A stretch of 64,000 bases of DNA from Sinomonas susongensis (GTDB taxonomy: Bacteria > Actinomycetota > Actinomycetes > Actinomycetales > Micrococcaceae), in NCBI RefSeq assembly GCF_005877005.1, contig NZ_SSNH01000001.1, positions 186,001 through 250,000 on the forward strand. Reading direction: 5' to 3'. The notes beneath the pieces were generated by a model that was not told the origin of the DNA, did no database searches, and was given only the letters and a program-made list of their open reading frames with translations. Within the stretch, counting starts at the first letter, position 1. Every line of letters begins with the position of its first letter. Position numbers and translations under genes: made by a program. This document shows, in pieces, positions 36,368 through 48,603 of the stretch.

Positions 36368-37189
36368 CTATCTGGGGGAGTTGAGAGCGGAGAGCGCCTG
36401 CCATGCGAGCGCTTGGTGGACGACCGTGCCGGTATCGACGCTTTCTGCGACGTGCTCGAGGAGCACTCGTGATGGCACGCCCTCGCAGTAGAGCGCAGCG
36501 GCGTCGTCCGGGCGGACATCGGAGAAGCTGAACGCCAGGCCGTCCCGGCACCGGTTCCGGACGCTCACCCTCCCCTCGCCGCAGCGAACGGGTGCGAGTG
36601 CCCGCGTGGCGGTGATGGCGAAGGCCTTCATGAATTCGTCCGTGATGTACCGCGGCTCAATCGAGGCGTGGCGGGCTAGGCCCTCGCTGATCTGCTCGAG
36701 ACGCCTCCCCACAGCGCAGCGAGGCATCGCGACTTCGCACGATCCGTCACCTCCCACGGTGACTCCCAGCTCGAACTCGCACCGGCGAGCCGCCCGGAGC
36801 GCCGCTCGGGACTTTGAGGTGATGTCCGATTGTCGCAGTGCTGCCTGGAGGACCTCAGGTCCCAGCATCTCCCGGGCAAAGAGCCTGTCGAATTCGTCAC
36901 CGCTGCCCTCGATGCTCGCGAGGACTTCGGTCGCACCGGAACCCGACCGGCAGTCTCTCGTGGTGGCCCCTCGGATGGTGAGACCGGACCGAGCAGGCAC
37001 AGCTAGGTGGCAGATCCGCTTCGCCACAAGTTCCTTCATCCCGTTCTGGATCGCGACCAGCTCGTCGTGGCTCGCGGCGAGATCCGCCAGGGCCTTGGCG
37101 ACTGCTTCATCGACCGGCCCAGTGGGAATCACGGTTTCGAAGACCTGGCCTTCAGGGTGAAGTCTGCCAGTTGATTCTTGGAGTGACAT
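36368..37189 (-). CDS. Conserved-looking hypothetical protein, cysteine-containing
   Basis: A 273-residue soluble protein I do not recognise. It has no signal peptide or membrane segment. Notable parts are LTIRGATTRDCRSGSGATEV near residue 70, SKSRAALRAARRCEFELGV with VGGDGSCEVAMPRC in the middle, and ITATRALAPVRCGEGRVSV; seven cysteines are scattered through it. It starts eight bases after the HTH gene stop, and the pair lies behind a SARP-type operator. A RES-type toxin fold was considered, but its key residues are not evident. Confidence 0.6.
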   Translation of the reverse strand: MSLQESTGRLHPEGQVFETVIPTGPVDEAVAKALADLAASHDELVAIQNGMKELVAKRICHLAVPARSGLTIRGATTRDCRSGSGATEVLASIEGSGDEFDRLFAREMLGPEVLQAALRQSDITSKSRAALRAARRCEFELGVTVGGDGSCEVAMPRCAVGRRLEQISEGLARHASIEPRYITDEFMKAFAITATRALAPVRCGEGRVSVRNRCRDGLAFSFSDVRPDDAAALYCEGVPSRVLLEHVAESVDTGTVVHQALAWQALSALNSPR

Positions 37190-37196
37190 GTTGGCC

Positions 37197-37580
37197 TCAT
37201 TCCGAAACGAAGGCGCGGGCGGCATTGAGCACGCGGTGCGCTATCTCGGCTGAATCGTTGTCGCGCAGCAGCCGAGCCGGCGGCGCGTCGTCGAGCAGGG
37301 GGTTCATGCCTTGGAACCAGGCTTGAACCACCTCCGGCGGATGCGTGCTGCTGAGGAGCCGGGCGATGTGGTATGCATCACGAAGTCGTTTGACGACGGC
37401 GCGCGAGGGGCCCCGTTCTCCGGAGACCCACTGCCGGACGGCGCGGGTTTCCTTCACAGAGCCGAGATAGGCCACAAGCTTCGGCCCGAGGATTTCAACC
37501 AGTCCGGCGGTGAGGGCGGGGACATCGAGGCTCATCGCCTCGCGGTAAGCGGACATCGCCGGGTCGGACGGTGAGCTCAT
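37197..37580 (-). CDS. HTH protein resembling Xre/MbcA/ParS (DUF2384) antitoxins
   Basis: A 127-residue protein. The N-terminal half (LVEILGPKLVAYLG, TRAVRQWVSGERGPSRAVVK) is an HTH with the recognition region at about 45-65; the C-terminal half AWFQGMNPLLDDAPPARLLR matches the toxin-binding domain of the Xre/MbcA/ParS family. ATG 37580 has GGAG six bases upstream. It could be an antitoxin for the adjacent gene or a regulator of the peptide cluster. Confidence 0.65.
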   Translation of the reverse strand: MSSPSDPAMSAYREAMSLDVPALTAGLVEILGPKLVAYLGSVKETRAVRQWVSGERGPSRAVVKRLRDAYHIARLLSSTHPPEVVQAWFQGMNPLLDDAPPARLLRDNDSAEIAHRVLNAARAFVSE

Positions 37581-37620: not shown

Positions 37621-37662
37621 GATTTAGCGACGGCCGTTACTGGGGCGTTACCGGTGGGTTGC
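37621..37662 (-). promoter_or_regulatory. SARP-type operator (third, weaker copy), facing the HTH gene
   Basis: Read on the minus strand, CAACCC, TAACGC and TAACGG are spaced exactly 11 bases apart; CCGTCGC and TAAATC (a -10 candidate) follow. It resembles the two sites before peptide genes 1 and 4. It lies about 40 bases before the HTH start. The rest of the gap to the SARP gene (37663-37960) has two GAGTA(T/C)CGGA motifs 21 bases apart at 37708 and 37729 and no gene. Confidence 0.55.
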
Positions 37663-37960: not shown

Positions 37961-38725
37961 ATGTCGAGATGGGAACTACGGCTTCTGGGGTGTTGGCAGC
38001 TTTTGGACCGGGGCGAGCCCGTGCCGGTGGGAATCCGCCAGCAACGGCTCATCACGGTGCTGGCACTCTCCGGACCCAGGCCACGCTCGTATCTTGCCGG
38101 CCTCCTGTGGCCTGAGAGCAGCCAGCGGCAGGCCGCTGGCAGCGTCCGCACGGCCGTCTTCAAGCTGCGGCACGAGCTCCCCGGCCTGCTGACCGATGAG
38201 ATCGAGCCGGTGAGCCTGTGCAGCGGTGTCCGCGTGGACGTGCACGAACTGCGGCGCCGCGTAGATCCCGAGCTCGTCGACGACGCCGTCGATCCCGGTA
38301 TCGAGGAGATGCTGGCCGGCGTCGAACTCCTTCCTGGCTGGTACGACGACTGGGTGCTCTACCAGCAGGAGCGCTGGCGGTCCTTCCGCATCGCCGCGCT
38401 TGAGGCGATGGCGCGTCAGCGGCTCGAGAGCGGAAACCCCGAGGGGGCCGTGATTGCAGCCCGCCACGCGGCCGAGCTCGAACCGCTGCGCGAGCGGTCA
38501 CAGGCCTTGTTGATCCGTGCGCAGGTCCTGGCCGGCGATCCGGCCGCGGCACTGCGAACCCACGAGCATTTCCGCCGACGCCTTTGGGAGGAAATGGGAC
38601 TCCACCCTTCCCCGCGTCTCAAGTCCGAGCTCGGGGAGGTCCTGGTGTCGGATGACGTCCGCCGCCCGGTCGCCTTGGCCAAGGCCCCCAAGTCAGCCGC
38701 AGCTGTCTATCTCACCAGGTCCTAG
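37961..38725 (+). CDS. Small SARP-type (BTAD) transcriptional activator
   Basis: A 254-residue regulator. Residues 1-90 form an OmpR-like winged helix (ELRLLGCWQLLDRGEPVPVG, RQQRLITVLALSG, LAGLLWPESSQRQAAGSVRT); about 95-235 is the bacterial transcriptional activation domain (ELLPGWYDDWVLYQQERWRS, RHAAELEPLRERSQALLIRA). This is the size of pathway-specific SARPs such as ActII-ORF4. No ATPase or TPR extension. ATG 37961 follows a G-rich stretch. The following gene begins 15 bases after its stop. SARPs bind 11-bp-phased direct repeats, which are found at three places nearby. Confidence 0.88.
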   Translation: MSRWELRLLGCWQLLDRGEPVPVGIRQQRLITVLALSGPRPRSYLAGLLWPESSQRQAAGSVRTAVFKLRHELPGLLTDEIEPVSLCSGVRVDVHELRRRVDPELVDDAVDPGIEEMLAGVELLPGWYDDWVLYQQERWRSFRIAALEAMARQRLESGNPEGAVIAARHAAELEPLRERSQALLIRAQVLAGDPAAALRTHEHFRRRLWEEMGLHPSPRLKSELGEVLVSDDVRRPVALAKAPKSAAAVYLTRS

Positions 38726-38740
38726 AAGGAGCGCACCGTC

Positions 38741-39490
38741 ATGGCATCTCGCCGCAGCTGGAGAATTCCGGCCCTCATCCTTTCGCTGGTCGCAACGGTG
38801 TTCCTCGCGGCCTCAGTTCCTGCGTCCGCTGAGGGCCGCGGTCCGAGCGACGATTCACGTGCCTCCGTGTCGCTGGACGCGGCCTCGTCGGCCATTCCCA
38901 CGGTCGCCCAGCCCCTCGTCACGGACTCGGCGAATGCCCGGTCGGTCCTTCAGGGCTCGGGACGGAAGGCCGTCGCGACCGCTGTCGCCACCAGCGGGTG
39001 CGGTGGCTGCTCGGGAACGGCCACGACGCTGCAGACCGTTTCGGTCCAGCCGGGAGGCGCCGCAATCGCTGACAATGTCGCTACTGCCTGGTCGAGCTGC
39101 GCCAGCTGCTCATCGTCCGCCATCTCGGTGCAGATCGTCACCGGGCCCAGCGTCAGCACGGTCCAGGTCAACAACCGTTCGCTCGCCTTGAACGCGGGCT
39201 GCTCAGCATGCACCACGACGGCGGTCGCCCTCCAGTTCGTCGTCGTCGGCGGCACCCAGCGGGAGCTGACCGCGACGACGAAGTCCATCATCCAGCAGAT
39301 CGAGCATGACCTCGGGGTCAAGCTGACGAGCCCCGCCGCTCAGAAGGCTGCCGCTTCCATGGGGCCGAGCGCCCGGCGCGAAGCAGCACAGCACGACGCC
39401 GACGACGCCGCGGCCCGCGCGAAGTCCGCAATCTCCTCTGACCTTCGGCCGGCTCAGGTCGGAGTGCGGGTTGAGGTGCAGGCCGGGTGA
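38741..39490 (+). CDS. Secreted protein with three CxxC repeats
   Basis: A 249-residue exported protein: a Sec signal peptide (residues 1-30, ending VPASA) then three repeats with CxxC at 87-90, 110-113 and 134-137. Each repeat has Gln 11 residues after the first Cys, giving C-x2-C-x7-Q-x-V (LQTVSV, VQIVTG, LQFVVV). The segment before the third repeat, SLALNA, recurs in the 63-residue peptides. The C-terminal third is charged and helical. It may bind metal through the CxxC pairs or form disulfides; function is unknown. AAGGAG precedes the ATG. Confidence 0.85.
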   Translation: MASRRSWRIPALILSLVATVFLAASVPASAEGRGPSDDSRASVSLDAASSAIPTVAQPLVTDSANARSVLQGSGRKAVATAVATSGCGGCSGTATTLQTVSVQPGGAAIADNVATAWSSCASCSSSAISVQIVTGPSVSTVQVNNRSLALNAGCSACTTTAVALQFVVVGGTQRELTATTKSIIQQIEHDLGVKLTSPAAQKAAASMGPSARREAAQHDADDAAARAKSAISSDLRPAQVGVRVEVQAG

Positions 39491-39570
39491 TCGGAGACTC
39501 GTGACGGGGGGCCTCGAGCCCCGAGGGGACTCGAGCCTGTTCGGCTTCCAGGGGTCAGCACCGCCGAACT

Positions 39571-39843
39571 CCCCAGCTTCCAGCGGTCCGGGCAGCCGAA
39601 CTCCCCAGCTTCACCGCCGGGTTCCCCAGCTTCACGGCCGGGTTCCCCAGCTTCACGGCCGGGTTCCCCAGCTTCCAACCGGATCCCCCAGCTTCACGGC
39701 CGGGTTCCCCAGCTTCGCCGCCGGGTTCCCCAGCTTCCAGCGGTCCGGGCAGCCGAACTCCCCAGCTTCGCCGCCGGGTTCCCCAGCTTCGCCGCCGGGT
39801 TCCCCAGCTTCCAGCGGTCCGGGCAGCCGAACTCCCCAGCTTT
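39571..39843 (+). repeat. Left arm of a large interrupted palindrome: 12 units around CCCCAGCTTC
   Basis: Twelve copies of CCCCAGCTT(C/T) in the same direction. Most units are 21 bases (for example GTTCCCCAGCTTCACGGCCG), some are 33 bases and carry a TCCGGGCAGCCGAACT block. It is mirrored by the array at 39943-40133. Open frames through it are low complexity and I do not regard them as genes. Confidence 0.85.
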
Positions 39844-39942
39844 GCCACCGATGACGGCGGAGGGAGCCTTGCGACTCCTACCTCGCCACGTACGGGACCG
39901 GCCAGAGGTCTGGGAGTCGGGGCTATGAGCAGGGGAGTTCGG

Positions 39943-40133
39943 CCTGGAGGCTGGGGAGTCGGGTCTAAAAGCTGGGGGATCCGGTTTGGAAGCTGGGGGA
40001 GCCGGTTTGGAAGCTGGCGAGTTCGGCTGCTTGAACCGATGAAAGCTGGGGGATCCGGTTTGGAAGCTGGGGAGTTCGGCTGCCCGAATCGCTGGAAAGC
40101 CGGGGGAGCCGGTCTGGAAGCTGGGGAGCCCGG
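39943..40133 (-). repeat. Right arm of the palindrome: about 8 units around GAAGCTGGGG
   Basis: The same 21- and 33-base units in inverted orientation; for example AGCTTCCAAACCGGATCC on the minus strand matches AGCTTCCAACCGGATCC in the left arm. About 100 bases of unique sequence separate the arms. The gap from 39491 to 40334 holds these arrays and nothing else that I can support. Confidence 0.82.
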
Positions 40134-40334
40134 TTGCGGGAGACGGCAGCGTCGCTCAGAGAAGCGGTCCGCACTCAGGAGACTGCCGGGCCCCTTGCAG
40201 GATCTGTCAAGAAATTGTCATTCCATGGCATGCTCTCGTCGTTCGTTCCGGCGTCACTATTGGAGAAGGGTGATTCAAGCAGAAGGGCGCCATTCTCTTC
40301 GCGGGCATCGGCGCCCGTCAGGACCGGAAGCACG

Positions 40335-40571
40335 ATGAGCAGCAGAGCTGATGACAGTTTGCGGGCATTCCTTCGGCGGGAGCATGCGGCGACTCCAGTC
40401 GGTCGTCTGGGTGAACACCTGCCGTCCCAGACGCGGATGGGCCTCAGGGACAAGGGGGCGTCCCGCATGCGAGAGCATCTGCTCGGGAACCTGAGGGAGG
40501 CTGGCCTCAGCGAGGACCAAGCCCGGGCCGAGGCGGAACGGATCCTGGCCGGCGACGTCTGGAGCGGCTGA
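40335..40571 (+). CDS. Small hypothetical protein
   Basis: A 78-residue hydrophilic protein, rich in Arg and Glu (DDSLRAFLRREH, MREHLLGNLREAGLSEDQAR). It begins at ATG 40335 (GGAAG four bases upstream); a longer frame reaches back to 40134 inside the repeat array. No family recognised; coding status rests on length and charged helical character. Confidence 0.4.
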   Translation: MSSRADDSLRAFLRREHAATPVGRLGEHLPSQTRMGLRDKGASRMREHLLGNLREAGLSEDQARAEAERILAGDVWSG

Positions 40572-40656
40572 CAGCACGGCTGCGGGACACAGCACGGCTG
40601 CGGCTGACCGGCTGGACTTGGCCGGCGTTAGGCAAGTCTCGAGGCGACAGGGACGT

Positions 40657-40938
40657 CTAGAGAGGGCCGAGTCCTTCGCGCGCGAGGTCGTGGAGCAGTT
40701 GGTGGTAGCTGGCCAGGGCCAGCGGGGGCGCCTGATGCAGGTCTGCGAACGTGGCCCGGGGCCGGTCGACTCGATACAGGGCGAGGATGACGCGGTCTTC
40801 CTCGTCGTCGGCGAGCGCGTGGTAGGCCCCGATCCGACTTCCGGACGCTAGGGCCCGGGCGTACTGGTCGAGACGTTTGTCTGGCATCGGGTTCCCTGCC
40901 CTGTTCCAGACTCGGACCACGTCCTCGGTGCCCAACAT
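40657..40938 (-). CDS. Small hypothetical protein
   Basis: A 93-residue soluble protein: MLGTEDVVRVWNRAGNPM, DQYARALASGSRIGAYHAL, DRVILALYRVDRP, QLLHDLAREGLGPL. Start ATG 40938 has a very good AGGAGG eight bases upstream, supporting it as a gene. Upstream on its strand are two GGATT(G)CGAGTAC-like repeats 23 bases apart (40990-41019). Function unknown. Confidence 0.6.
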   Translation of the reverse strand: MLGTEDVVRVWNRAGNPMPDKRLDQYARALASGSRIGAYHALADDEEDRVILALYRVDRPRATFADLHQAPPLALASYHQLLHDLAREGLGPL

Positions 40939-41094
40939 TGCCCTGCCCTCCTGAGTCCTGCCGTTCTCCCTACACTTTGGCAAGCCCCCGTACTCGCAAT
41001 CCACACTTGTCTGTACTCGAATCCGCGAGACGACTCTCACTCGAGCCCCCGACGCGTCGAGTTCTCCGGGGAACTGCAGGGAACCAGTCGGCCA

Positions 41095-41137
41095 TAACGC
41101 AGCCGTAACGCCTCAATAACACAGCCTTCGCTTGACT
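41095..41137 (+). promoter_or_regulatory. SARP-type operator and promoter of peptide gene 1
   Basis: TAACGC, TAACGC and TAACAC begin at 41095, 41106 and 41117, exactly 11 bases apart. Nine bases later (ending CTTCGC) comes TTGACT at 41132-41137, which fits a -10 box. The same arrangement is found at 43500-43542. Confidence 0.75.
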
Positions 41138-41199
41138 CTCTTCAGCGATCGGTTTTCGACCGCGAAACCAAAACCCACTTCACCAAGGAGATGAGTCTC

Positions 41200-41391
41200 A
41201 TGACGAAGCTGACCCTCACCGAAATCGCCACCGAGTCCGTCGAGCTGCTCCCGAGCCGCGACACGCTCTTCCTCAACTTCAACTTCGCGCAGGTCATGGC
41301 CTCGAACAGCTCCCTCGCCCTGAACGCCGTCACGTGGGGCTCCGTCGCCAACAGCGCGGCTCTCCAGAGCGTCTCGGTCTACCAGCACTGA
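41200..41391 (+). CDS. 63-residue precursor-like peptide 1
   Basis: Leader-like half MTKLTLTEIATESVELLPSR, then DTLFLNFN and an Asn/Ala/Ser-rich half with SLALNA and LQSVSVYQH. All four peptides here are 63 residues and align without gaps; conserved are L4, T5, ELLP (15-18), R20, TL (22-23), N26, N28, N36, A40, N42, T45, S48, AN (50-51), LQ (55-56), V60 and Q62. ATG 41200 has AAGGAG nine bases upstream; ATG 41191 abuts it and is less likely. Peptide 1 has no Cys. Confidence 0.85.
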   Translation: MTKLTLTEIATESVELLPSRDTLFLNFNFAQVMASNSSLALNAVTWGSVANSAALQSVSVYQH

Positions 41392-41408
41392 GTTGTCCTG
41401 ATCCCCTT

Positions 41409-41444
41409 CCGGGGCGGCCGGTCCTTCCGGGCCGGCCGCCCCGG
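41409..41444 (+). terminator. Hairpin between peptide gene 1 and the protease gene
   Basis: CCGGGGCGGCCGG and CCGGCCGCCCCGG form a perfect 13-bp stem with a 10-base loop, 18 bases after the peptide stop. No T tract follows. It may attenuate transcription or protect the peptide mRNA 3' end. Confidence 0.65.
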
Positions 41445-41502
41445 AAAGCCCCCATCCCGCAGACACGGCCGGGACCGGGGACCGAGTCGAAGGAAGGGCA
41501 CC

Positions 41503-42882
41503 ATGACGGAGGACCTCGCAGTCGCGGAGACAGGGTGGCAACGGGCGGCCGGCGTAGAACTGCTCGGCCAGGTCTCCGGCTCCGGCCTCAACCACACCAC
41601 TTACCTCGCCCGGCGTGCGGATGGGCAGGTGGTCCAGTTGAGCGAGCTCCTGCACCACATCGTCTATTTCGCCGAGGGCCCCCTCCTTTCCGACGAGCTT
41701 GCCCGGCGCGTGAGCGACGCGTATGGCCGTGAGCTGGACGTCGAGGGACTGAACCTCCTCGCGAAATCGAAGCTCCATCCGCTCGGCCTCCTCGAGGTCC
41801 CAGGAACGGTGACCGTCACGGAAGCGCCGAGCGCGACGCCCCTTCTCGCATTGCGAGCGAAGGCGACAGTGGTGCCGCGCAGCGCCGTCGAGCGCCTGTC
41901 GCTCATCTTCAAGCCCCTCTACGCGACCCCGGTCGTGATCCTCGCCTGCCTGGGTCTCGTGGCGCTCGACGTCCGACTCTTCCTCGGTTCAGACCCCACT
42001 GCGGCGCTCAACGACGTCCTCATGACGCCCACGATGCTCCTCACCCTCTTCCTGCTCATGACGGTCGGGGCCCTGTTCCACGAGCTTGGCCATGCCACCG
42101 CGTGCCGGTATGGCGGGGCGACGCCGGGGGTGATCGGCGTCGGCCTCTATGTCGTCTTCCCGGCCTTCTACACGGACGTCACCGATTCCTACCGCCTCAG
42201 CCGAGCCGGACGCATCCGGACTGACCTGGGCGGCCTGTACTTCCATGTGTGGTGGGTCCTCGCCGCCGGAATCGGCTACCTCCTGACAGGCAGCCCGTTG
42301 CTGCTCCTTGCCGTGATCGTGACCCAGCTCCAGATGGCCCAGCAGCTCCCGCCCACCATCCGTCTCGACGGCTATTTCGTCCTTGCGGACCTGGCTGGCG
42401 TCCCCGATCTGTTCGGCCGCGTCGGCCCCGTCTTCAGGAGCCTCATTCCAGGGCGGCCCGTAGACCCCCGCGTGAGCGAGCTCAAGCCGCTTTCCCGCCG
42501 GATCGTCAAGGGCTGGGTCCTCGTCGTCGTGCCCTTCCTCGCAGGCGTCCTCGTCTGGGCGGCAGTGAGCCTGCCCTACGTCCTGATGTCGGCGTCCGCC
42601 GCGGTGACGGTCCACGCCGAGAACCTCTCCACCGCGCTCGCCACGGGGCAGATCCCCGAGGCGCTGGTTTCCTTCCTCGGGATCCTGCTGCTCGCGCTCC
42701 CCGCCGTCGGCTCGGTCCTCATCCTCGGCCAGGTCGCGACGAGCTTGGGCAAGGCGGTCACCCGCCGTCTCACTGCCGACAAGCGGACGACGACGACGCG
42801 GGCCCGCCACGTGGCGACGTCGCCTTCACGGCGGCACATCCAGGCCATCCGGGCCAGCCGGCGCCACACGCCGGCCCATTAG
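41503..42882 (+). CDS. M50-family membrane peptide metalloprotease with possible PqqD-like N-terminal domain
   Basis: A 459-residue protein. Residues 18-97 (DGQVVQLSELLHHIVYFAEG, LSDELARRVS, GLNLLAKSKLHPLGLL) look like a winged-helix PqqD/RRE-type domain. The membrane part has five or more helices; HELGH at 183-187 is the zinc-binding HExxH, and LDG at 288-290 supplies the third-ligand Asp. FPAFYTDVTDSYRLSRAGRI is typical of the putative peptide zinc metalloprotease (YydH-like) group. The tail is basic. It lies between peptide genes 1 and 2, which suggests that it cleaves those peptides. GAAGGAAGGG precedes ATG 41503. Confidence 0.85.
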   Translation: MTEDLAVAETGWQRAAGVELLGQVSGSGLNHTTYLARRADGQVVQLSELLHHIVYFAEGPLLSDELARRVSDAYGRELDVEGLNLLAKSKLHPLGLLEVPGTVTVTEAPSATPLLALRAKATVVPRSAVERLSLIFKPLYATPVVILACLGLVALDVRLFLGSDPTAALNDVLMTPTMLLTLFLLMTVGALFHELGHATACRYGGATPGVIGVGLYVVFPAFYTDVTDSYRLSRAGRIRTDLGGLYFHVWWVLAAGIGYLLTGSPLLLLAVIVTQLQMAQQLPPTIRLDGYFVLADLAGVPDLFGRVGPVFRSLIPGRPVDPRVSELKPLSRRIVKGWVLVVVPFLAGVLVWAAVSLPYVLMSASAAVTVHAENLSTALATGQIPEALVSFLGILLLALPAVGSVLILGQVATSLGKAVTRRLTADKRTTTTRARHVATSPSRRHIQAIRASRRHTPAH

Positions 42883-42934
42883 ACCGCTCTCAGCTGAGAG
42901 GAAACGACGAGCCTCTTGGAAGGAGGTGACCATC

Positions 42935-43126
42935 ATGCAGAAGCTCACCCTGGCCGAACTGGGCGCCGAAGACGTTGAGCTGCTCCCGCGCCGGGAGACG
43001 CTCTTCTGGAACTTCAACGCAGCCCTCGTGGGTGCGACGAACTCCTCGCTCGCGCTCAATGTCGCGACCATCTGTTCGCAGGCGAACAGCGCCGCACTCC
43101 AGCAGATCGTGGTCTCGCAGCACTAG
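42935..43126 (+). CDS. 63-residue precursor-like peptide 2
   Basis: MQKLTLAELGAEDVELLPRR, then ETLFWNFN, NSSLALN, ICSQANSAALQ and the end VVSQH. It begins 52 bases after the protease gene; AAGGAGG lies eight bases before ATG 42935. It carries one Cys at position 47, shared with peptide 4, where peptides 1 and 3 have Gly. Confidence 0.86.
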   Translation: MQKLTLAELGAEDVELLPRRETLFWNFNAALVGATNSSLALNVATICSQANSAALQQIVVSQH

Positions 43127-43162
43127 GACCCGATTCCCGAGTACGGGATATATCCCGCGGAG

Positions 43163-43201
43163 CGTGCCCGGCACCGCCCCTGTCTGGGCGGGCCGGGCAC
43201 G
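43163..43201 (+). terminator. Hairpin between peptide genes 2 and 3
   Basis: Outer stem CGTGCCCGG/CCGGGCACG and inner stem CCGCCC/GGGCGG. It is followed by CCTATATC rather than a T run. Just upstream are the motif CCCGAGTACGGG and palindrome GGGATATATCCC (43137-43156). Confidence 0.55.
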
Positions 43202-43224
43202 CCTATATCTAGGAGGAAATCATC

Positions 43225-43416
43225 ATGAACGCACTCACGATTGCAGAACTCGGCGGAGAGCACGCGGAACTCCTTCCGCGGCGGGACACCCTGCTCTTCA
43301 ACATCAACATCGCACCGGTCGTTGCGGTCAACCTCGGCTTCGCCATCAACGCGGCGACCATCGGTTCCACGGCGAATGCGAACGTCCTCCAGTGGGTGGG
43401 CGTCCTGCAGCACTGA
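43225..43416 (+). CDS. 63-residue precursor-like peptide 3
   Basis: The most diverged member: MNALTIAELGGEHAELLPRR, DTLLFNINIA, then VNLGFAINAATIG and VLQWVGVLQH. It keeps all invariant positions of the family including ELLP, the N26/N28 pair, N36, N42 and LQ. AGGAGG lies eight bases before ATG 43225. No Cys. Confidence 0.85.
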   Translation: MNALTIAELGGEHAELLPRRDTLLFNINIAPVVAVNLGFAINAATIGSTANANVLQWVGVLQH

Positions 43417-43429
43417 TCCGGGTGGAATG

Positions 43430-43466
43430 GCCCCGGGCACGATTCGCATTCTGGCCCGGGGCTTTT
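43430..43466 (+). terminator. Intrinsic terminator after peptide gene 3
   Basis: GCCCCGGGC and GCCCGGGGC form a 9-bp stem with a 15-base loop, followed by TTTTCC. It closes the first peptide/protease transcript; a new SARP-type promoter begins 34 bases later. Confidence 0.75.
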
Positions 43467-43499
43467 CCATGTCCAGGTACATCGCCCTGCTCCGGCCTG

Positions 43500-43542
43500 T
43501 AACGCGCGAATAACACCGGCATAACACGCGCTTCGCTTGACT
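43500..43542 (+). promoter_or_regulatory. SARP-type operator and promoter of peptide gene 4
   Basis: TAACGC, TAACAC and TAACAC begin at 43500, 43511 and 43522; CTTCGC and TTGACT (43537-43542) follow at the same distance as in the first copy. The leader then shares TCCACCAAGGAG with that of peptide gene 1, giving about 60 bases to the start codon. Confidence 0.75.
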
Positions 43543-43600
43543 GCTTTCACCGGCCCGCAAATGGGGCCGTCCAATCATTTCCACCAAGGAGTTGAGTCTC

Positions 43601-43792
43601 ATGACCAAGCTGACCATCGCAGACCTCGCCGCCGAGTCCGTCGAACTGCTGCCGAGCCGCGACACGCTCTTCTTCAACTTCAACGCGGCGCTCATCAATG
43701 CGACGAACGTCTCCTACGCGGTCAACGCGGCGACGATCTGCTCGAGCGCCAACAGCGCCGCGCTTCAGAGCATCGTCGTCTCGCAGCGCTAA
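43601..43792 (+). CDS. 63-residue precursor-like peptide 4
   Basis: MTKLTIADLAAESVELLPSR, DTLFFNFN, then NATNVSYAVNAATICSSANS and SIVVSQR. Closest to peptide 1 in the first half and to peptide 2 in the second half, with Cys47. ATG 43601 lies nine bases after AAGGAG. It has its own SARP-type promoter and may be cotranscribed with the sortase-like gene 126 bases downstream. Confidence 0.86.
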   Translation: MTKLTIADLAAESVELLPSRDTLFFNFNAALINATNVSYAVNAATICSSANSAALQSIVVSQR

Positions 43793-43918
43793 CGCCGGTA
43801 CCGCCGTCGTCGCCTTCCTGCCGTCCGGCAGCTAAAGCAGGAGCGGCTGGAGGGGGACGACGGCGGCCGCCACTGGGAATCCGGGTCCTCAGGGACGCCA
43901 CGGCGAGGGGGAGAACAC

Positions 43919-44704
43919 GTGGGAAAGCGAGTAGCGAGCCAGCGCTGGCGCCGTTCACGCGTCATCATCCTCGCCCTCGCTGCGGGCATGGCGCTCGCCG
44001 GCGGAGGCTTCCAACTGGACGCGGAGGCGCGGCAGCAGAGCCGCGAGGCTGAGGCGCAGCAGCTGGCGAGCACCGCTTCCTCGCCAGCTTCGCCGACCCC
44101 CGCCGCTTCAGCCTCGTCGGCCCAGCCGAGCGCACTCTCTGCCGCCCTCGGGGGCTCGCTGAGCACGCCTTCGGCAGCAGCGAGCCCCAAGGGTGCCACG
44201 GCGCCCGGGACACCGGCTGCCAAGGCTCCCGCGCACACGAGCCTCACGATGCCGTTGACCAAGTTCAGCTGGCCCGCGGCGGGACTGTCCGTGAACGTCG
44301 TCCCCCTCGCCTGGACTCCGGGGGAGACGGTCGACCCGCCGCTCGACGGCAACGGATTCGACCCGGTGGCCCATTGGCTTGAAGGCACCGGCGGAACAGG
44401 AGCGATCCGACCGGCCGTCATCGCCGCTCACGCCTGCCACCAATCGGTGCCCCTGTGCAACGACTCGACATTCCCCTTCAACATGCTCAGCTATTCCGGC
44501 TGGGCGGTTGGGCAGCAGGCGACCGTGACGGATTCCCGCGGGATGACGGCGCCCTGCACCCTTGCGGACCGGAAGCTCGTGGACAAGTCCAAGGCCTTCT
44601 CGTTCGCCAACGATCCCTGCGACGTCGTGGTGTTCTCGTGCAATTTCGAGAATCCCGACGGCCAGGTCGTACTCCTGACATTCCGATGCGGACAGTGCAC
44701 CTGA
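43919..44704 (+). CDS. Exported sortase-like protein, cysteine-rich
   Basis: A 261-residue protein with an N-terminal membrane anchor (RVIILALAAGMALAGGG), a Ser/Ala/Pro linker to about residue 105, and a sortase-like barrel: PAVIAAHACH with the candidate catalytic His171, FPFNMLSYSGWAVGQQATVT, CTLADRKLVDKSKAF and VVLLTFRCGQCT with candidate Cys257. It ends four residues after that Cys, so the Arg that normally follows in sortases is missing; seven cysteines are present in the domain. It may be a variant sortase or a redox-structured relative. GTG 43919 follows GGGGGAG. Confidence 0.7.
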   Translation: MGKRVASQRWRRSRVIILALAAGMALAGGGFQLDAEARQQSREAEAQQLASTASSPASPTPAASASSAQPSALSAALGGSLSTPSAAASPKGATAPGTPAAKAPAHTSLTMPLTKFSWPAAGLSVNVVPLAWTPGETVDPPLDGNGFDPVAHWLEGTGGTGAIRPAVIAAHACHQSVPLCNDSTFPFNMLSYSGWAVGQQATVTDSRGMTAPCTLADRKLVDKSKAFSFANDPCDVVVFSCNFENPDGQVVLLTFRCGQCT

Positions 44705-44774
44705 ATGCCAGGCCAGTTCTCCTTGTCACCTCGTTGAGGGCGCCGAGCGCCCGCGTTGAAAGGAGGCGGCCAGC

Positions 44775-45974
44775 ATGCCGCTAATCTCGAAGCCCCGTAA
44801 GAAGGGCGTGAGGATGGTCTTCACGTTCACTGCCTGTGCTCTCATGAGCGCGGGCGTCGCCACGAGCCCGGCTTGGGCCGGCTCGGGCAATGTCGGTGGA
44901 TTGCCCGACACTGGAACAAGCACATTGCCTTCGACGATGTCCGGCGTGCCCGGCAGCGGCGCGGGTGGCTCAACGAACCTCGGCGCCGGGCTGGGCGCAG
45001 GTGGCTCAACGAACCTCGGCGCCGGGCTGGGCGCGGGCGTTGACCTCGGCTCGCTCACGGGCGGCCTGGGCGGCGCCGGTGGTGTGGGCGGCGCTGGCGG
45101 CCTCGGTGGCACCGGTGGCGTGGGCGGTGCCGGCGGCCTCGGCGGTGCTGGCGGTGTTGGAGGCTCCACTGATCTTGGCGCCGGGCTGGGCGGGGGCATC
45201 GACCTCGGCTCGCTCACGGGCGGCCTGGGCGGTGCTGGCGGCCTCGGCGGTGCTGGCGGCGGGCTCCCGAGCGACATGCCCGGTCTCCCTGGCGGTACCT
45301 CCGGCAACACCGGAACGCCTGGCGGCTGTGGTTGCGAGCAGGGCGGGGGCGGCCCGACTTCGGTTCCCACCGTGCCGACGCCCTCGATCCCGGTTCCGGT
45401 CCCGACCAGCAGCACGCCCGAAGAGTGCGGCTGCCAGCCGAGCCCGTCGCCGACCTCCACAGAGACCGGGACGCCGTCGCCGACTCCGAGCGAGACGCAC
45501 AGCGGGACGCCGTCGCCGACTCCGAGCGAGACGCACAGCGGGACGCCGTCGCCGACTCCGAGCGAGACGCACAGCGGGACGCCGTCGCCGACTCCGAGCG
45601 AGACGCACAGCGGGACGCCGAAGCCCGGCGTCGGTGGTGCGACGGGTGGTCCGACATCCTCGGCCAAGACGACTCCGAGCGGGGCCGCCGCAGCCGGTGG
45701 CACGACGTCCTCGGTCGTCGTAGCCCAAGGTGCAGCTGTGGGCACTGGCGGTGGCGCCGGGGCCGGTGCTGCAGGTGTCGGCGCTGCCGGTGCTGGCGCG
45801 GCTGCCGGTCAGGGCTCCGTGAGCATGACGGCGCAGACCGGCGTCGGGGCTCCCGCGGCCGACTACACCGTCTCGACGACGTTCTTCGCGTCGGGACTCC
45901 TGCTGCTCCTGTGGGTGCTCTTCTCGCCGAAGGGTGCTGCCCGGCGCGGCATGAAGGCGCACCGCGCGCACTGA
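44775..45974 (+). CDS. Gly-rich, repeat-containing surface protein with sorting-like C-terminus
   Basis: A 399-residue exported protein. Signal peptide to about AWA (residue 35), LPDTG at 43-47, then Gly/Ala/Leu-rich repeats (GAGGLGGAGG-like), two CGC motifs (GGCGCEQ, ECGCQ), four perfect copies of a 12-residue PSPTPSETHSGT-type repeat, a Gly/Ala stretch, TAQTG, and a C-terminal hydrophobic helix (FFASGLLLLLWVLF) with a basic tail. This is the shape of a cell-wall-anchored protein; the adjacent sortase-like gene may process it. AAAGGAGGCGG precedes ATG 44775. Confidence 0.8.
   Translation: MPLISKPRKKGVRMVFTFTACALMSAGVATSPAWAGSGNVGGLPDTGTSTLPSTMSGVPGSGAGGSTNLGAGLGAGGSTNLGAGLGAGVDLGSLTGGLGGAGGVGGAGGLGGTGGVGGAGGLGGAGGVGGSTDLGAGLGGGIDLGSLTGGLGGAGGLGGAGGGLPSDMPGLPGGTSGNTGTPGGCGCEQGGGGPTSVPTVPTPSIPVPVPTSSTPEECGCQPSPSPTSTETGTPSPTPSETHSGTPSPTPSETHSGTPSPTPSETHSGTPSPTPSETHSGTPKPGVGGATGGPTSSAKTTPSGAAAAGGTTSSVVVAQGAAVGTGGGAGAGAAGVGAAGAGAAAGQGSVSMTAQTGVGAPAADYTVSTTFFASGLLLLLWVLFSPKGAARRGMKAHRAH
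45468..45611 (+). repeat. Four perfect 36-bp tandem repeats in the surface-protein gene
   Basis: Units start at 45468, 45504, 45540 and 45576, each GGGACGCCGTCGCCGACT followed by CCGAGCGAGACGCACAGC, encoding GTPSPTPSETHS. Identity between units suggests recent slippage and probable copy-number variation among strains. Confidence 0.92.
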
Positions 45975-47496: not shown

Positions 47497-48603
47497 ATGC
47501 GCCAGCTGCCGCCCGCCGTCGTCCGTCAGGCCCTTCTCCGTCCCAGCCTCGTCCGGGCCGTCCAGCGGTTGAGTGCAGCCCTCGGACGCGCGGGCAGCGC
47601 GCTTCAACCGCCCCAGGCGCGGTTCCTTCAGCTGACTGGAGGGGTCGCCCCGATCATGCTCATGCGAGCGGTCGTGCAGACCCGCCTCGTCGAGCCGCTC
47701 GCGCAGGGGCCGCTCACCGCCGAGGCGATCGCGGGGCGGCTGGGCCTCCACGCAGACACCGTCCATAGGGTGCTCCGCGGGCTGGCCGTGTACGGGCTGG
47801 CGCGCCTCGACCGGAGCGGCCGGTTCTCGCTCACGTCCACCGGGCGCCTGCTCCTCGACGACCATCAGCACACAATGGCCGGCTGGATCCGCTACATGAC
47901 CTCGCCCATGGTCATCGAGGGGTGGTCCCGGCTTCCCGAGTCGCTCCACGACGGGCTTCCCGCGTTCAACGCGGCGACGGGCACCACCATCTGGGAGCAC
48001 CTCGCGCAGCATCCCGACGAGGAGGAGGGCTTCGCCCGGACCATGCGCGAACTGACGCTCATGGCCGCACCGCTCATCGTCGCCGCCTATCCGTGGCCCG
48101 AGGAGGGGACGGTCTGCGACGTGGGCGGCGGGGTGGGCTCGATGCTCGCGGAGGTCCTCCGTGCTCGGCCGAAGCTCTCAGGCGTGCTCGTCGACCAGGC
48201 CGGACCGCTCGCGGGTGCAGGGGAGTACCTCGCATCGCGAGGCGTGGAAGCGCGCGTGACAGCCGTCGAGGGCGACCTGTTCAAGGGCTTCTCCGCGGCC
48301 GCGGACGTCTACCTCCTCAAGGATGTCCTGCACGACTGGGACGACGACCAGTGCGCTCAGATCCTGCGCACAGTCCGCGCCGCCGCACCGTCGGGGGCCC
48401 GGCTGCTCGTGCTCGAGTGGCTGCAGGAGCCGAACCGCGCCGAGTTCCCCGTCTCGATCTCGGACATCATGATGCTCGCGCAGACCGAGGGCAGGCAGCG
48501 TTCGGCGGCCGAGTTCGCCGCCCTCGCCGCAGGAGCCGGGTTCGCGCCCGGCCGCGTCATCGACACGGGCGCCTATGGAATCGTCGAACTCGTCGCTGTG
48601 TGA
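47497..48603 (+). CDS. SAM-dependent O-methyltransferase with dimerisation winged helix
   Basis: A 368-residue class II (plant COMT/acetylserotonin type) methyltransferase. The N-terminal winged-helix dimerisation domain (AEAIAGRLGLHADTVHRVLR, RFSLTSTGRLL) is followed by the Rossmann fold with VCDVGGGVGSMLAEVL (SAM loop), DVYLLKDVLHDWDDDQC (catalytic His in LHDWDD) and LVLEWLQEPN. TAGGCT (47485-47490) ends six bases before the ATG and overlaps the glmM stop, so it is probably leaderless. Substrate unknown. Confidence 0.88.
   Translation: MRQLPPAVVRQALLRPSLVRAVQRLSAALGRAGSALQPPQARFLQLTGGVAPIMLMRAVVQTRLVEPLAQGPLTAEAIAGRLGLHADTVHRVLRGLAVYGLARLDRSGRFSLTSTGRLLLDDHQHTMAGWIRYMTSPMVIEGWSRLPESLHDGLPAFNAATGTTIWEHLAQHPDEEEGFARTMRELTLMAAPLIVAAYPWPEEGTVCDVGGGVGSMLAEVLRARPKLSGVLVDQAGPLAGAGEYLASRGVEARVTAVEGDLFKGFSAAADVYLLKDVLHDWDDDQCAQILRTVRAAAPSGARLLVLEWLQEPNRAEFPVSISDIMMLAQTEGRQRSAAEFAALAAGAGFAPGRVIDTGAYGIVELVAV

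Follow-up and report, generated by a model that had tools for sequence, protein, structure and literature searches.

A gene cluster between rpsI and glmM of Sinomonas susongensis has, in our judgement, an even chance of encoding a leader-directed system that makes self-assembling surface peptides. It lies in a 64,000-nucleotide stretch of the genome (contig NZ_SSNH01000001.1, positions 186,001 to 250,000, hereafter the window), and comprises genes for an activator of the SARP (Streptomyces antibiotic regulatory protein) type, a protein with CxxC motifs, four homologous peptides (pepA to pepD), an M50 membrane protease encoded between pepA and pepB, and, behind pepD, a sortase-like and a surface protein. 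All genes named in an earlier note on this DNA were found where it had placed them. The firm observations are the gene set, the split of the peptides into leader and core, the alternating conservation of the core, a module shared by the core and the CxxC protein, the operators, and the fusion of protease and CxxC domain in a paralogue. The features are as follows.

37636..37662, minus strand: weaker operator-like site with two mismatches, between the SARP gene and the divergent gene at 37197-37580
37961..38725, plus strand: small SARP-type activator, 254 residues (Pfam BTAD, E 3.2e-16)
38741..39490, plus strand: CxxC protein, probably secreted, 249 residues, with a signal-peptide-like start (by eye) and three CxxC repeats (alignment, hhalign, AlphaFold2)
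41094..41122, plus strand: SARP-type operator upstream of pepA, three RTAACRC heptamers with an 11-bp period (pattern scan)
41200..41391, plus strand: pepA, 63 residues (longest open reading frame from 41191; start chosen by a ribosome-binding site seen by eye)
41503..42882, plus strand: membrane protease, 459 residues, with an RRE-like N-terminal domain (residues ~12-100) and an M50 HExxH domain
42935..43126, plus strand: pepB, 63 residues (longest open reading frame from 42926)
43225..43416, plus strand: pepC, 63 residues, second (INxAPVxxVN) subtype
43499..43527, plus strand: SARP-type operator upstream of pepD (pattern scan)
43601..43792, plus strand: pepD, 63 residues (longest open reading frame from 43592)
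43919..44704, plus strand: sortase-like secreted protein (by eye), a local neighbour perhaps read from the pepD promoter
44775..45974, plus strand: Gly/Pro/Ser-rich surface protein with a C-terminal hydrophobic stretch, which pairs with the sortase-like gene; a local neighbour

The four peptides are indeed homologous, and each has exactly 63 residues from starts judged by eye by ribosome-binding sites; GC at the third codon position of their genes is 0.83-0.95. Each divides into two distinct halves, a leader with 24% charged residues that typically bears the motif ExxxELLPxR[DE]T, and a core with 2.4%. The family occurs at seven places in the window genome, three of them beyond the cluster: contig C23 has two, in a further cluster of the order SARP-peptide-M50-peptide, and contig C34 a single one. 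Since these three further copies exist and the family is present in 10 of 14 other Sinomonas genomes, it is not a product of chance. The lone copy (locus L039, 9974-10183) is an orphan: no relative of the M50, SARP or CxxC gene was seen within ~10 kb of it, nor an operator. Four window peptides and three peptides from relatives outside the window match no Pfam or NCBIfam model above cut-off, and neither the peptides nor the CxxC protein has a solved relative by sequence at E<=1.

Analysis of the core revealed that conservation alternates from residue to residue, with an entropy of 0.63 bits at odd positions against 2.47 bits at even ones, a contrast reached in none of 20,000 permutations and absent from the leader (1.21 and 1.38 bits). 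It persists after the rows are filtered to <65% identity (n=17). The same alternation was seen in the Streptomycetaceae-type, Nocardioides, Pseudarthrobacter-type and 'INANLA' peptides (0 of 5,000 permutations in each), while a group termed f36, with only four peptides left after filtering, stood outside this period-2 test. The conserved face carries N, A, S, Q and I/V at every second position. We read the alternation as an extended strand, conserved on one face and free to vary on the other, which a turn interrupts around residues 46-48. An initial 49 peptides were gathered by the pattern [LMV]PxR[DE]T, so the invariance of LPxR[DE]T among them stems from the selection; relatives found by profile vary after LPx[RK]. 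These 49 end mostly in Q plus one or no residue, and none ends in Thr. Two side observations concern other loci. Beside an M50 gene in L112 (8918-9715) and L113 (9457-10236), a similar leader (ESVEMLPTRETL) sits on a different, Asn/Asp/Gly/Ser-rich and partly repetitive core. In L249 (2299-2538) and, by eye, in other Streptomyces-type loci (L117, L220), the peptide gene is preceded by a small gene (VVRSSTGEAVVLLSG...) with no useful Pfam match.

The core module of the peptides recurs in the CxxC protein, a relation overlooked in the earlier note. In hhalign, the peptide core and this part of the CxxC protein pair over 33 ungapped columns (E 1.8e-5, probability 78%). The core-only score is 33.9, whereas 200 shuffles of the columns reach at most 16.9, another 200 that keep parity at most 21.2, and the reversed control 16.0. 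Against CxxC rows of other families only, the peptides gave E 3.6e-4 with a probability of 37%. Peptide residues N39, N45, A57 and Q59 fall on N145, N151, A163 and Q165, which are invariant in 12 CxxC proteins; in addition, A43 falls on an Ala-or-Ser position, and the third CxxC pair has its two cysteines opposite T48 and S51. The CxxC proteins match no Pfam or NCBIfam model above cut-off, the best being DUF7351 for one protein (2.8e-4). AlphaFold2, given 12 input sequences, predicted a model with a mean local confidence (pLDDT) of 76.5 and a template-modelling score (pTM) of 0.73, in which seven strands of 10-12 residues (residues 59-169) form a ladder of stacked β-strands resembling a β-solenoid. 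Superposition of the CsgA fibril (PDB 8enq) by VIA-align gave Z 4.7 and a root-mean-square deviation of 8.4 over 90 residues, which is below match level; FapC appears weakly in the same kind of comparison.

The membrane protease, read earlier from its HExxH motif, proved real. It matches the NCBIfam model daptide_HExxH (NF041824) over residues 35-306 with E 1.5e-22, at 80 of 300 bits and thus below the curated cut-off, and also the YydH/LiaK model NF058609 (E 1.3e-12); Pfam Peptidase_M50 matches 4 of 20 protease rows, with a best E of 0.036. In the alignment of 20 relatives, from which the zinc motif was taken, H193, E194 and D289 are invariant and H197 nearly so, the exception being an HExxR paralogue. 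A regular-expression census gave odd matches in nine f36 loci and one other, where the pattern presumably hit a different part of the chain. At the N-terminus, ~90 residues resemble an RRE (RiPP recognition element, where RiPP stands for ribosomally synthesized and post-translationally modified peptide): of 38 relatives, 5 match PqqD (best 7.9e-4) and 4 the RiPP-binding protein ApyI (best 2.7e-5), the daptide model, whose protease is described as RRE-dependent (PMC10036551), aligns from residue 35 onward, and a PDB profile search put PqqD (3g2b) first at a weak E of 0.87, while the N-terminal domain of the window protease itself matches neither PqqD nor ApyI. The earlier note was right that the protease goes with the peptides, and had passed over its RRE-like domain. 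In four order and class relatives (L108, L109, L114 and L116) the translated protease ends in a MinD/ParA-like ATPase domain with a KGGVGKTT or KGGAGKTT loop (family match computed on L114 only), which possibly energises export.

The block of peptide, protease and CxxC genes is found in many Actinomycetota. The peptide is present in 13 of 98 near relatives, the window genome included; a profile search (E<=0.001) found it in 9 of the 396 order-level genomes and in 32 of the 394 class-level ones, and these sets share a few genomes. Within Sinomonas, peptides, a protease orthologue (>=54% identity, that is, at least 54%) and a full-length CxxC protein occur together in 11 of 15 genomes and are all missing from the other four; two of these four hold only a protease paralogue of 42-43% identity, one with a weak CxxC match inside it. 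A profile scan with the protease yielded the best 80 of 477 relatives as 80 named M50 loci, from Sinomonas, the Arthrobacter group, Nocardioides, Georgenia, Intrasporangium, Streptomyces, Streptacidiphilus, Actinospica, Blastococcus, Acidimicrobiia and others, three bins labelled Chloroflexi among them. As these loci were picked by M50 similarity, M50 stands at 80 of 80 by choice, and some come from genomes that fed the peptide, CxxC and SARP models. Co-occurrence, which the earlier note had proposed to count, was as follows: a peptide gene lies within 6 kb in 76 of the 80 loci at E<1e-6 (78 at E<1e-3), and within the fetched stretch a CxxC gene is found in 58 (E<1e-10) and a SARP gene in 51 (E<1e-20). 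Conversely, M50 accompanies 37 of the 42 loci of the order and class searches, which hold a peptide by construction; two of the five misses are at contig ends, and three are in genomes with a second, M50-bearing locus. The earlier note had named homologues with no M50 or SARP neighbour as evidence that would tell against it. SARP-less homologues do exist (no SARP hit in 29 of 80 loci), though few lack M50. Also, 22 of the 80 loci lack a CxxC hit nearby, so the CxxC partner is not always in the locus.

To survey the neighbours, genes were called within 6 kb flanks by a simple gene caller, and 838 proteins of >=90 residues (at least 90) were clustered; beyond M50, SARP and CxxC, no family occurs in >12 of the 80 loci. 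Radical SAM enzymes and exporters are not among the recurring neighbours, just as the earlier note had seen neither in this cluster. One ABC ATPase cluster is present in 11 of the 80 loci, and the example shown is FtsE-like by eye. No candidate tailoring enzyme recurs in the 80 loci, with no genome-wide search made for a co-distributed distant enzyme. In the one annotated copy looked up, on a Streptomyces plasmid, the peptide, protease and CxxC protein are all annotated as 'hypothetical protein'.

The regulator in the cluster is a genuine SARP with 43-63% identical relatives in 13 other fetched loci; the claim that the cluster has a regulator of its own holds here and does not extend to all 80 loci. 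The repeated operators are equally real, each consisting of three RTAACRC heptamers at an 11-bp period, at 41094 and 43499. In the whole 3.77 Mb genome only four such sites occur at <=2 mismatches, compared to none for the reversed control pattern. Three are exact and stand just upstream of peptide genes (pepA, pepD and a peptide of contig C23); the fourth is the weaker one beside the SARP gene. Operator repeats also precede the pepD of locus L050 (probably Sinomonas gamaensis), which lies beside glmM and away from the SARP gene of that genome. Over 80 scan sources (the window, 17 first-set, 12 order and class and 50 named loci, L150-L199, with some DNA duplicated) the scan gave 51 matches, in 14 of 17 first-set and 26 of 50 named loci, its controls being two shuffles that keep base composition only; about half of the SARP-bearing named loci lack an operator at the scan threshold. 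A TTGACT hexamer starts 9 nt after the last heptamer, near the 8 bp published for the -10 element (PMC10936776). The layout of the direct repeats matches that described there for SARP sites, and binding by the SARP is predicted.

From these features we infer the cleavage site, export route, polymerisation, nucleation, surface location and function, as follows. The SARP would turn on the peptide operons through the 11-bp direct repeats. The charged leader would be bound by the RRE-like N-terminal domain of the membrane protease, whose M50 active site would cut shortly after the leader motif and release a nearly uncharged core of ~35-38 residues on the outer side. The core would then fold as a two-strand β-arch with one conserved face, and cores would stack rung on rung into a cross-β polymer. 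The secreted CxxC protein may template or anchor this polymer; each of its repeats would be this module again, with a CxxC pair stapling the turn. Such a system would work like curli by convergence, fed by a RiPP-style leader and RRE protease without a modifying enzyme; of the two options in the earlier note, an unmodified or self-assembling peptide is favoured over a RiPP with a distant tailoring enzyme. In its fullest form, a widespread Actinomycetota surface polymer in which unmodified, leader-bearing precursors, cut by an RRE protease, give single-rung β-arch peptides of several near-identical kinds that co-assemble on a secreted, disulfide-stapled nucleator of the same module, the proposal stands somewhat short of an even chance.

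Several observations weigh against this self-assembling surface polymer. In sequence, A53 is invariant in the peptides and unconserved in the CxxC module; in structure, Foldseek found no PDB match for the CxxC model at E<=0.001, and the CsgA fibril ties with unrelated proteins in structure comparison. AlphaFold2 of pepD alone gave a pTM of 0.33 with no strands and no fold, which neither supports nor refutes assembly. Among the loci, those lacking a CxxC hit nearby include all six named Pseudarthrobacter, and two of the first set (L039 and L050) have a lone peptide without M50, with M50 elsewhere in their genomes. Genomes that are probably Frankia-like (f36, L132-L149) keep the leader, and the protease in 15 of 18 loci, with no CxxC gene near; their cores are of other kinds, some short and hydrophobic and others N/S/G/Q-rich. 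The recurrent neighbours include no visible export machine. Moreover, SARPs control antibiotics more commonly than surface fibres. Lastly, a methyltransferase-like gene (by eye) stands at 47497-48603 beyond glmM; because it is also 3' of glmM in L050, we take it as a glmM neighbour.

Antibiotic-type control leads to the first rival, in which the two peptide subtypes (pepA, pepB and pepD; pepC) form a multi-component bacteriocin, released by the protease and switched by the SARP. The closest characterised protease, MpaP, matures daptides, described as synergistic hemolysins (PMC10036551), and both the SARP gene in 51 of 80 loci and the two subtypes seen by eye in many clusters fit such a role. 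However, the core face is almost invariant across families, whereas bacteriocins diversify, the core is nearly uncharged, no immunity or export gene recurs in the 80 loci, and the module shared with a secreted partner is left unexplained. We consider a bacteriocin unlikely. A RiPP modified in trans by an enzyme elsewhere in the genome, its leader removed by the protease afterwards, appears more doubtful still. The leader and RRE logic is that of a RiPP, and unclustered RiPP enzymes are reported (PMC8960859); however, beside the absence of a recurrent candidate enzyme in the 80 loci, the protease adjoins its enzymes in epipeptide systems and in daptide ones (PMC10036551 for the latter), and the core residues are conserved as a strand face, not as isolated reactive residues. 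A secreted signal, sensed via the CxxC protein or fed back to the SARP, would suit the placing of three of the four genomic operator sites on peptide operons with the weaker fourth beside the SARP gene, and a second protein that carries the peptide module, but is very improbable given that no receptor-like protein recurs in the 80 loci, 29 of which lack a SARP hit, and that encoding several slightly different peptides in one cluster is uncharacteristic of a pheromone.

If the surface-polymer reading is true, leader and RRE recognition, so far known as an entry to peptide modification, also makes plain structural peptides, a curli-like polymer with a dedicated nucleator exists in Gram-positive soil bacteria, and a large group of daptide-related proteases gains a function. 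The system is present in named Sinomonas, Nocardioides, Arthrobacter-group and Streptomyces strains, so that its steps are open to experiment.

Among known systems, curli resemble the proposed polymer in that a subunit (CsgA) and its partner (the nucleator CsgB) share a module with regularly spaced N, S, A and Q, and, as we read the cores, in their strand-turn-strand rungs; they differ in that the peptides here have a leader-bearing precursor, an RRE protease and one rung per peptide. As the structural match to the CsgA fibril is weak, we claim a likeness of principle with curli and no homology. Chaplins have Sec signal peptides and a Pfam domain of their own, whereas the peptides here lack a Pfam match and their leader is charged, with no hydrophobic stretch by eye. 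Like the peptides as read here, chaplins of Streptomyces are short, secreted, β-rich actinobacterial peptides, several per genome (PMC3079736). Epipeptide loci (yydFGHIJ/LiaK) likewise join a peptide to an M50 protease, as reflected in the NF058609 match, but with a radical SAM epimerase and an ABC exporter, neither of which recurs near the 80 loci. Amyloid signalling motifs (PMC7889193) also place a shared β-arch-like motif in two proteins of one locus; the proteins here appear extracellular, judged by the CxxC signal peptide, and no receptor-like gene recurs.

The daptide clusters of Microbacterium (MpaA/MpaP; PMC10036551) hold several similar precursors, and their protease, described as RRE-dependent, joins an RRE-type domain to an intramembrane HExxH peptidase; both features are found here too. 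They differ in other respects. The leader here has LPxR[DE]T compared to ELExMEAP in daptides, the invariant C-terminal Thr of daptides is seen in none of the 49 aligned peptides, and the oxidative decarboxylase, aminotransferase, methyltransferase and exporter are not recurrent in the 80 loci; for the window itself, the family searches covered the cluster genes plus three neighbours. Plasmid-annotated MpaP proteins reach only 28-40% identity in partial matches. Membership among the daptides was rejected on the C-terminus, the leader motif and the missing enzymes. TMcin was set aside as well, since its precursor has a transmembrane helix (PMC13252029) and none is seen by eye in these peptides. 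The system lacks defining features of daptides, epipeptides and chaplins, while its regulator and protease are of known kinds. No account of the gene set was found in the open-licence literature searched, and within that scope the word 'undescribed' in the earlier note holds; we make no claim of absence from print.

The window genome also encodes a paralogous system in which RRE, M50 and CxxC domain (E 5e-26) are joined in one chain of 796 residues. In three congeners a similar chain, 774-795 residues long, carries HExxH and, at its C-terminal end, two CxxC pairs; the CxxC match was computed on the window-genome copy, and at the genome level it was found in one congener. The precursor of one congener has ~212 residues (start uncertain) and consists of a leader and two similar core-like modules. 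CsgA has repeats, to which this two-module precursor may be likened. In the window genome (L041, contig C31, 9396-11966) the precursor is cut to its last module and the protease reads HEFGR, whereas the three congeners have HEFGH and longer precursors, and the system there looks decayed.

Behind pepD, the 'sortase-like' protein was so called from a His...Cys...Arg arrangement read by eye; no sortase model matches it at E<=10 in Pfam or NCBIfam, and the only Pfam match is DUF6082 (0.52). Among 17 other loci fetched from Sinomonas and its near relatives, L050 alone holds a relative. Ten of 15 Sinomonas genomes carry the gene, and 10 of the 11 copies looked at have no adjoining peptide gene. On both counts we rejected the sortase-like and surface-protein genes as members of the conserved block and regard them as local neighbours only. 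Of the exported partners proposed earlier, the CxxC protein belongs to the block. The sortase-like gene is often followed by the surface-protein gene, and one copy has an internal stop (window 43919-45974; L235-L245).

A few minor features surround the cluster. Two small genes at 36368-37580, neither with a convincing match in Pfam, run divergently from the SARP gene on the minus strand; the divergent gene of 285 residues has a 43% identical relative adjoining pepD in L050. Between the CxxC gene and pepA, the minus strand also encodes a protein of 127 residues (40657-41040) for which neither Pfam nor NCBIfam gave a match. The same gap holds GC-rich tandem repeats at 39544-40128, with units of 21 and 32 bases, followed by repeats of the complementary kind.

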